Assembly (NCBI RefSeq): GCF_023516435.1
Contig: NZ_CP097332.1
Location: 2,232,001 to 2,296,000, forward strand
Direction of reading: 5' to 3'
Origin: Jatrophihabitans telluris
Lineage (GTDB): Bacteria > Actinomycetota > Actinomycetes > Mycobacteriales > Jatrophihabitantaceae
DNA length: 64,000 bases
In this document: positions 36,143 through 38,677 of the stretch, piece by piece
How the letters are laid out: each line of letters begins with the position of its first letter
Position numbering within the stretch: the stretch's first letter is position 1
Translations under genes and position numbers: made by a program
Notes under the pieces: generated by a model
Database searches by the model: none
What the model was told of the DNA's origin: nothing
What the model saw: only the letters and a program-made list of their open reading frames with translations

Positions 36143-36895
36143 CTATCCCTCCGACACCATCGGCGAGGACGCTACCTCCGTGCCGTCGGGCAACGTCGTG
36201 ATCTCGAAGTCCGCGAAGACGTTCCCGGCGACGCGCTTGAGTTCCCGAAGGCAGGCGATGGCCAGATTCCGGATCTCGACGTCGGCGTGCTCGGACGCTC
36301 GCATCGCGACGAAATGCCGCCACGCCCGGTAGTTCCCGGTGACCACGATCCGGGTTTCGGTGGCGTTCGGGAGCACCGCCCGGGCCGCTTGGCGGGCCTG
36401 CTTGCGTCGCAGCGTGGCGTGCTCGACGTCGGCGAACTTCTTTTCCAGACCCTCGAGGAGGTCCGTATAGGCGGCCACGGCCGCCTCGGACGCCGCGACG
36501 AACTTCGCATGCAGTTCAGGATCGTCGGCAATGACGTCGGGCTCGACCATCGCCGCGTCTCGCTCGGGCACGTAGCGCTGTGACAGTTGGGAGTAACTGA
36601 AGTGGCGGTGCCGGATCAGCTCGTGAGTCAGCGAGCGAGAGATGCCCGACAGGTAGAAGGTCACCGAACCGTGCTCCAGGACCGACAGATGCCCAACCTC
36701 GAGGATGTGGTGCAGGTAGCCGGCGTTGGTAGCGGTCGCTGGATTCGGTTTCTTCCACGACTGGTAACAGGCGCGGCCGGCGAACTCGGCCAGAGCCTGG
36801 CCGCCGTCGGCGTCGGTCTCCCACGGCACGCCGTCGGGGACCTCGAATTGCGTCCACGCGATGACCTGGACCTTGGGTTGGACGATTTCGGGCAC
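36143..36895 (-). CDS. thyX: FAD-dependent thymidylate synthase
   Basis: Makes dTMP from dUMP using methylene-tetrahydrofolate, FAD and NADPH. The 250-residue product has the ThyX signature RHR-x2-S-x4-S-x-R ([14 protein letters not shown], about 87-100) and further motifs [15 protein letters not shown] and [13 protein letters not shown]. The frame continues far upstream, but family alignment places the start at GTG 36895 ([14 protein letters not shown]). No thyA is in the window. The dapA-thyX-dapB neighbourhood is a conserved actinobacterial group, although interrupted here. Confidence 0.95.
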
Positions 36896-37060
36896 AGCGC
36901 ACTCCAGTCGACAGCGTGATGACCGCATCGAGCGCCGGCAACCGGACCTGCCCGAGCGTGTGAACAGCTTAGGCCACACGCCGGGTTCTCGGTCCACGAT
37001 CAGCCTCCGTGTCGCGGCCCGCTGCTGGGTTGCCACACTGACAGCAATACCCTCTTGATT

Positions 37061-37091
37061 TGATGCCAGGCATGATGTCATAGTGATGTCA
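37061..37091 (+). promoter_or_regulatory. Direct-repeat operator at the ribbon-helix-helix gene
   Basis: Three copies of TGATGYCA start at 37061, 37073 and 37084, one helical turn apart. The last overlaps the start codon at 37091. CATAGT (37079-37084) stands 6 nt before the ATG, so the repeats would cover a leaderless promoter. This is the layout expected for autorepression by a ribbon-helix-helix protein. Confidence 0.65.
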
Positions 37092-37690
37092 TGAAGCTCG
37101 ACGACTACACCTCGCAGGTCCGAAGCCAACTCACCGCCGCCGCCGCGCTCGGTGACGAACGCACGCAGGAGATCGCGGCCGCATTGGCCGGCCCGCTCGA
37201 CTCCGCCGTGCGGCTGGCAGTCCTCAACGCCCTGTCGGAGGCCGCGGGCGAGATCAACGGAGCACTTTTCGAAGCCGGCGGCGGCCATGCGAGTCCGGCC
37301 GTCAGCGTCCATCTCGACGGTGACGCCGTACGCGTGTCGGTGAGCCACGCCCCCGTCGAGGCCGAGGAACCGCGGGTGGACGACGGTGACGCCTCGGCAC
37401 GAATCAGCATGCGCCTCACCGAGGCTCTCAAGGCCGACATCGAGCAGGCCGCGGCCCGCGCCGACGTGTCCGTCAATACCTGGCTGGTCCGCACCGCAGC
37501 GAACGCGGTCGGCTCCGGACGATTCCCAGGGGGTCAGGGTCCTGGTGGCTGGGCCAGCTGGGCCGGCTGGCCCAGCGGCGCGGGCTGGCCCAGCGGCGCG
37601 GGCTGGCCCGGCGGATCCGGGGGTCGCTCCGGCGGCAGTTCAGGCGGCAGCCGTGGGTCCAACCGCATCTCCGGGTGGGTCACGGGCTGA
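37091..37690 (+). CDS. Ribbon-helix-helix (HicB/Arc-like) regulator with Gly/Trp-rich tail
   Basis: A 199-residue protein. The N-terminal 90 residues are helical with a HicB-like partial fold ([20 protein letters not shown]). Residues about 102-138 ([20 protein letters not shown] ... [12 protein letters not shown]) form a ribbon-helix-helix DNA-binding domain. The C-terminus is low complexity with repeats of GWPSGA and Gly/Ser. No HicA toxin gene is adjacent; instead a DUF4097 gene follows after 129 bp, a pairing I recognise from other actinomycetes. The direct-repeat operator at its start suggests autoregulation. Regulatory role is inferred. Confidence 0.75.
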
Positions 37691-37819
37691 GCCGCCCGCC
37701 GCTGTACCGCTCCTGTACCGCCGCGGTGGTGCCCCGCGAAGTCCCCGTTCTGAAGTCCCGTACTGGGGCCCCGTAGGTCCCGGCGTCGAGCTTTTCCCTC
37801 TCATCTCTGGAGTCCCGTC

Positions 37820-38677
37820 ATGCCTATCGAAACGTTTCCCCTGAGCGGGCCGATCAATCTTCAGGCCCGCTTCGCCCTCGGATCACTGTCCGTGCGAGCC
37901 GAGGACGGCCTGTCCGAGGCACGGGTCGAGGTGACGCCACGCGCTCCCCGCTCCTCCGTGCTCGACAGCGTCAGCGTCGCCATGCGTGGCCCGACCCTGA
38001 TGATTTCCGGACCGCGGCCTCGCGGGGGTTTGCTCGACCTCGCGGTGTTCGGTGGCCCGACTTCGGAAAGCGACGCCATCGACGTGGTCGCGGTCGTCCC
38101 GACCGGGACGGCCATGAAAGTCACCACGTTGAGCGCGACGGTCTCGGTCGCCGGCACCCTCGGCGGGGTCGACATCGCCGGACGAACCACCGAACTCAAC
38201 CTCGACGGAGCCGACGGTGACGTGCGGGTCCGCAGCGGCAACGGATCATCGACGCTGCACCGCGTGCGCGGCTCGGTCGAGATCCGGTCCGGGAGCAACG
38301 AGGTGGACATCACCGAGGTCAGCGGCGCAGTCGACATCGGCATAGGCACCGGCACGGCCCGGATCGGGCTCGCGCACGACGCGGTGAGACTGCGGTCGGG
38401 ATCGGGGGAACTCGTCATCGAGCAGGCTGATGGCGACGTCGATCTGACGACGGGCAGTGGGAGTCTGAGCGTCGGGATCGCCGCCGGTCATCAGGTGCGG
38501 CTGGATCTGCTGACCGGGCACGGGGAACTACGCACCGAGATGCCGGTGACCGATCAGCCCACGACCGCCGGGCTGGTCAAGGAGCCGTCCCGCCGGTCGA
38601 GCATTCGGGCCCGCACGGGCAACGGTGACATCACCGTTCGCCGGACCGCGCCCACTGCCGAGCAACCCGCTACCTGA
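37820..38677 (+). CDS. DUF4097 family beta-repeat protein
   Basis: A 285-residue protein rich in alternating beta strands, with recurring ...VRSGNGSS, ...IRSGSNEVDI, ...LRSGSGELVI, ...LTTGSGSLSV and ...RARTGNGDITV segments about 20-40 residues apart, typical of the DUF4097 (putative adhesin-like) right-handed beta helix. There is no signal peptide or membrane segment, so it appears cytoplasmic. A GGAG site precedes ATG 37820. It follows the ribbon-helix-helix gene and overlaps the converging ycaQ-like gene by 8 bp. Function is unknown. Confidence 0.82.
   Translation: MPIETFPLSGPINLQARFALGSLSVRAEDGLSEARVEVTPRAPRSSVLDSVSVAMRGPTLMISGPRPRGGLLDLAVFGGPTSESDAIDVVAVVPTGTAMKVTTLSATVSVAGTLGGVDIAGRTTELNLDGADGDVRVRSGNGSSTLHRVRGSVEIRSGSNEVDITEVSGAVDIGIGTGTARIGLAHDAVRLRSGSGELVIEQADGDVDLTTGSGSLSVGIAAGHQVRLDLLTGHGELRTEMPVTDQPTTAGLVKEPSRRSSIRARTGNGDITVRRTAPTAEQPAT

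Follow-up and report, generated by a model that had tools for sequence, protein, structure and literature searches.

A ribbon-helix-helix regulator with a repeated operator over its own predicted leaderless start, paired with a DUF4097/Toastrack protein in Jatrophihabitans telluris and other Actinomycetota

The window, which is the whole 64,000-nt stretch of DNA from the soil actinobacterium Jatrophihabitans telluris that was analyzed, carries on its forward strand a gene coding for a 199-amino acid ribbon-helix-helix (RHH) regulator (positions 37091-37690). This open reading frame (ORF) has homologs in family and order genomes, and its message is predicted to be leaderless. It is followed on the same strand by a gene for a 285-amino acid DUF4097/Toastrack protein (37820-38677), preceded by a TGGAG Shine-Dalgarno sequence at 37808-37812. 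The protein matched PF13349 with 28.1 bits (cut-off 22.9), and its AlphaFold2 model (pLDDT 92.8) is a beta-helix whose top Foldseek match was 4qrk (E 6.5e-07), which is cited as a Toastrack-fold structure in PMC11237479. The gap between both genes is 129 bp, longer than usual, and hence the DUF4097 gene could have a promoter of its own. No ABC ATPase or permease gene lies downstream at this locus; the next gene is AlkZ-like, on the opposite strand. Upstream, outside the unit, the divergent thyX gene (36146-36895, reverse strand; PF02511) is a neighbour conserved in the thyX-linked subtype of the locus.

The regulator was modelled by AlphaFold2 as a monomer. Its N-terminal domain (residues 1-85; 37091-37345; pLDDT 86-97) is predicted to form a helix (residues 3-19), a second helix (23-62) and a hairpin (70-76/79-85), and Foldseek found no PDB counterpart for it. 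The RHH domain (residues 102-141; 37394-37513) has the expected strand-helix-helix order with alternating base-contacting residues: an RI[STN]xRL strand is followed by helices 111-123 and 128-141, and the HicB, RHH_1, Arc and TacA1 models match across members. It is closest to the AtaR/TacA-type RHH, AtaR being the nearest PDB match. A Gly-rich linker with GWPSGA repeats, which is predicted to be disordered (37514-37663; pLDDT about 50 or below, with gaps in the alignment), leads to the conserved C-terminal peptide RISGWVTG (37664-37687), the proposed DUF4097 docking motif. The description of the protein as HicB-like in an earlier note on this DNA holds for the RHH part, where the Pfam HicB model scored 18.0 bits (cut-off 21) and covered residues 102-133 only, but not elsewhere: the partial RNase H-like domain found at the N-terminus of HicB is absent, and the predicted helix-helix-hairpin in its place has no HicB match. 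Similarly, the GWPSGA repeats reported for the tail are present, but conservation in the tail is confined to the last ∼7 residues.

A sequence scan located three copies of TGATGYCA on the forward strand, TGATGCCA at 37061-37068, TGATGTCA at 37073-37080 and TGATGTCA again at 37084-37091, so that the proposed three-copy array, with intervals of 12 and then 11 bp over a -10 element and the start codon, was confirmed at these coordinates. Copy 3 ends on the A of the RHH gene ATG (37091). Each copy is, however, better taken as a near-palindromic site for a single RHH dimer: the general form TGRYRYCA is nearly its own reverse complement, and would therefore suit one two-fold dimer per site, a geometry that we infer. 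The -35 element TTGATT (37055-37060) abuts copy 1 on its 5′ side, and its TTG is kept at about this place across an alignment of 116 homologs, 104 of which have the first T. After an 18-bp spacer comes the predicted -10 element CATAGT (37079-37084, or -12 to -7), which runs from the last bases of copy 2 to the first of copy 3 and lies 6 nt upstream of the ATG. Both hexamers are weak, and a generic promoter scan made no call at CATAGT because only 8 of the 12 sigma-70 consensus positions are matched. Although the scan gave no call, the element is conserved across homologs as CANNNT, with columns -12, -11 and -7 conserved. A riboswitch or other RNA element was rejected, since Rfam gave no match.

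The conservation and uniqueness of the operator were then computed. Single TGATGYCA sites occur 8 times in the window (2.6 expected). The phased pair was found at this locus only when the whole 4.19-Mb genome was searched, and the relaxed pattern TGRYRYCA-N3/4-TGRYRYCA was likewise unique. At least two perfect TGRYRYCA sites in 11/12-bp phase are present in 148 of 205 homologs, versus 9 of 6058 control windows drawn from the same loci, and 145 of the 205 have a perfect last copy directly at the ATG. When 116 upstream regions were aligned by their ATG, TGRYRYCA fell at -29 to -22 (equivalent to copy 1), -18 to -11 (copy 2, strongly conserved) and -7 to +1 (copy 3), with an almost invariant CA/TG junction at the start codon. 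A Shine-Dalgarno-like sequence was seen in 3 of the 205 homologs, all three outside the phased set. Many of the non-phased homologs have this array as well, though one or two of its bases deviate. It is missing from the deepest relatives, some of which carry a GAGGAGG-type leader in its place.

The triple operator pattern gave 25 matches in 150 order genomes, and the reversed pattern, used as a control, gave none in the same genomes. Nineteen of these matches are at the RHH start, five are upstream of it, and one (genome G114) is on another contig. Because no genome has the pattern twice and nearly all matches are at the RHH gene, the circuit looks purely autoregulatory. A regulon beyond the own gene was rejected: the strict and relaxed searches of this genome found no further site, and no order genome has more than one triple site. 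The five upstream matches lie roughly 150-250 bp 5′ of the RHH start, as assigned by homology. Four of them (L263, L265, L266 and L267, from genomes G081, G135, G111 and G059, respectively) directly adjoin the ATG of a conserved ORF of 44-45 codons located before the RHH gene, and the fifth (L264) is followed by ATA. Two of the four ORFs start with MTxDPYVEELRSQL, resembling the regulator N-terminus; it is possible that the short ORF is a leader peptide or the relic of a duplicated start.

The operator covaries with the strand of the regulator. The RHH strand reads R-I-[S/T/N]-x-R-L, and residue 106, a Ser in this copy (encoded at 37406-37408), varies among homologs. With Asn at this position the half-sites are TGG, with a mean G fraction of 0.86 (n = 40); with Thr or Ser the mean G fraction is 0.34 (n = 101) and 0.24 (n = 25), respectively. 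This pairing of Asn with TGG, and of Ser or Thr with TGA, supports direct binding of the predicted operator by the RHH domain. On a FastTree phylogeny of the regulator protein with the strand region taken out, 6-7 of 8 phylogenetically separate contrasts went as expected and one was opposed, a single contrast being on well-supported branches. Few contrasts are well supported (one for the strand residue, and four for loss of DUF4097, see below), which limits phylogenetic independence, and we consider the tree-based covariation to be good rather than conclusive. When 15 genomes with two paralogs were compared, the Asn copy carried the TGG-rich operator, and 14 of 14 scorable pairs agreed; these pairs may descend from a single duplication. 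Since paralogs within one genome differ as expected, GC content was rejected as the source of the correlation. At thyX-linked loci the operators are TGA-rich, and Asn106 is found in 0 of 51 scored regulators. It is hardly credible that another conserved actinobacterial regulator, rather than the RHH protein, binds the repeats, given that the site tracks the RHH gene almost exclusively and covaries with its base-contacting strand, even between paralogs of one genome.

The earlier note had made its reading depend on the two genes being neighbours in relatives, and of the 209 scorable homologs, 202 indeed have DUF4097 directly after the regulator gene. Its term "two-gene system" fits the copy studied here, but in many relatives the unit is a larger operon with an ABC exporter. 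A scan of close relatives with the DUF4097 protein as sole query found nothing. The C-terminal motif, hydrophobic-x-G-[W/Y/F, rarely T/H] (ISGWVTG here), follows a linker of very variable length, and is present in 199 of the 202 DUF4097-adjacent homologs versus 0 of the 7 without DUF4097 (Fisher p 4e-11, relatedness not being corrected for). The seven DUF4097-less homologs (L139, L143, L170, L203, L218, L220 and L228), which on our reading represent four clades, keep the RHH domain and most of the operator; in L143 a widened tail regex scores SNGH as a motif, which by eye it is not. The four supported DUF-loss contrasts on the tree, in which both fused ORFs were counted as DUF-less, pointed in the same direction in nearly every random pairing. 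In these fusions (L212 and L242) the RHH and DUF4097 parts are joined in one ORF that lacks the C-terminal peptide; they may be natural, or the result of a frameshift or assembly error. The 23 class-level homologs outside the rule-finding set carry DUF4097 and the tail motif without exception, and the operator with few exceptions.

The retention of the motif with DUF4097, and its absence from the seven homologs that lack DUF4097, suggests that the C-terminal GW peptide docks onto DUF4097. The motif persists both with and without an ABC transporter, so it would not serve the transporter. Autorepression could also hold with DUF4097 as a co-transcribed effector that makes no contact with the regulator; the GW peptide would then have another role, for example as a degradation signal or in oligomerisation or membrane contact. 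A peptide on a disordered tail is also degron-like, and two deep relatives (L068 and L243) are DUF4097-linked yet have neither the tail motif nor the operator. Nevertheless, loss of the motif in every homolog without DUF4097, in four clades with the RHH domain and most of the operator retained, and its indifference to the transporter make an effector that never contacts the regulator rather unlikely.

The gene order, the closeness of the RHH domain to AtaR/TacA, the disordered and partner-linked tail, and the repeats over the promoter are antitoxin-like, and relatives are annotated as "HicB family antitoxin". The locus could then be a toxin-antitoxin system with an RHH antitoxin, a DUF4097 toxin and conditional cooperativity. 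HicA (PF07927), however, had no match anywhere in the genome, as the earlier note had supposed from the sequence, and the same search was positive in 7 of 14 control genomes; PADLOC gave no match at this system. Membership in HicAB was rejected on the lack of HicA in the genome and the confinement of the HicB match to the RHH residues, and membership in other toxin-antitoxin systems on the PADLOC result. Furthermore, DUF4097 has the fold of a Toastrack beta-helix scaffold, which in other settings accompanies envelope-stress and ABC proteins (PMC11237479), many relatives run on into an ABC exporter, and partner-less regulators as well as pair-less genomes occur. We therefore regard a DUF4097 toxin as very improbable. 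Homologs were also seen in 39 plasmid records (e.g., NZ_CP108416 and NZ_CP030074), 34 of them from Streptomyces; several of the 39 are annotated as "HicB family antitoxin", a label that looks misleading.

A single-sequence search detected the regulator in 17 of 24 family genomes, and a search with an alignment of 13 family members detected it in 96 of 150 order genomes and 41 of 296 phylum genomes, with 408 confirmed stretches in the genome collection. The close relatives in this collection are Jatrophihabitans and Pseudonocardiales MAGs by their deposited names, and Blastococcus, Arthrobacter, Cellulomonas, Micromonospora and Streptomyces are among the more distant ones. The architecture of operator, partner gene and tail recurs across Actinomycetota. 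The regulator profile found no copy in four family genomes of high completeness (G005, G009, G014 and G015) and, to judge from these, the regulator is dispensable. The opposite-strand neighbour is thyX at 62 loci. Among 155 loci with both flanks, 52 are thyX-linked without ABC, 65 have an ABC ATPase without thyX, 38 have neither and 0 have both; thyX lies upstream on the opposite strand, and the ABC ATPase downstream in the other form. The locus studied here (36146-37091 region) is of the thyX-linked two-gene form. Divergent thyX and ABC linkage are mutually exclusive.

From these results it is well supported that the regulator switches its own putatively leaderless message and is paired with DUF4097. 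We think it probable that the locus is an autoregulated two-gene operon, with the RHH protein acting at the leaderless start and DUF4097 adjusting its action via the C-terminal peptide. Mechanistically, cooperative autorepression at the putative leaderless promoter seems most likely. Each near-palindromic 8-bp TGRYRYCA site would be occupied by a single RHH dimer, and successive dimers would stack on one face of the DNA, 11 bp being one helical turn. The stacked dimers would cover the -35/-10 spacer, the -10 element and the transcription start (the A of the ATG), and by covering them are proposed to block RNA polymerase. As the genome has no other site, the target of the regulator would be essentially its own operon. 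Co-transcribed DUF4097 would bind the GW peptide at the tip of the flexible linker, and docking may tune repression according to the free amount of DUF4097 or the status of the envelope. We infer this adjustment from the co-occurrence of motif and partner.

If this is true, it provides a concrete route from a Toastrack domain to transcription, namely a short peptide on an RHH repressor; a platform role has been proposed for Toastrack, but no transcriptional contact is known for it in this setting. The one-residue specificity switch (Ser/Thr versus Asn) would keep paralogs apart within a cell, the conservation of the operator is sufficient for annotating hundreds of actinobacterial genomes, and the widespread "HicB family antitoxin" label would be corrected. 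More tentatively, and with somewhat less confidence than doubt, the system may be a phylum-wide module with the control logic of toxin-antitoxin systems, in which a Toastrack envelope-stress scaffold replaces the toxin. The operon partner would then titrate the C-terminal peptide of an RHH protein on a multi-site operator, and the status of Toastrack would be read out directly at the leaderless promoter.

Among known systems, PMC11237479 (mSystems 2024), which proposes Toastrack as a platform for signalling complexes, devotes one sentence to an operon in Actinobacteria that joins Toastrack with an ABC transporter and an RHH factor. In both cases RHH and DUF4097/Toastrack genes adjoin, but the copy studied here is thyX-linked and lacks the ABC genes. 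A term search of that paper's main text turned up neither an operator nor a leaderless start, and no covariation or tail motif. Nor did we find, in the searched literature, which stopped short of most subscription papers, any report of the operator, its position across a predicted leaderless start, the covariation or the tail peptide; nothing was found on HicB with DUF4097 or thyX. The DUF4097 beta-helix, with a weak LiaG match and 4qrk as top fold, resembles the LiaG/Toastrack proteins of the Lia and PSP envelope-stress systems, but a membrane anchor, LiaF, PspC and a two-component system are all missing here. The met boxes of MetJ and the Arc operator are arrays of short palindromic sites or half-operators, each bound cooperatively by one RHH dimer, and the Arc half-sites are ∼11 bp apart. 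The operator described here, known from sequence, is likewise an array of short sites; it differs in the site itself (TGRYRYCA), in its placement over the start codon and in having no known co-repressor. With AtaR/TacA and other type II antitoxins the regulator shares the RHH fold, the adjacent partner gene, the disordered C-terminal tail and the putatively autoregulatory operator over the promoter. Unlike these antitoxins, it has an extra N-terminal helix-helix-hairpin and a central RHH domain, and it is paired with a scaffold, not with a known toxin.
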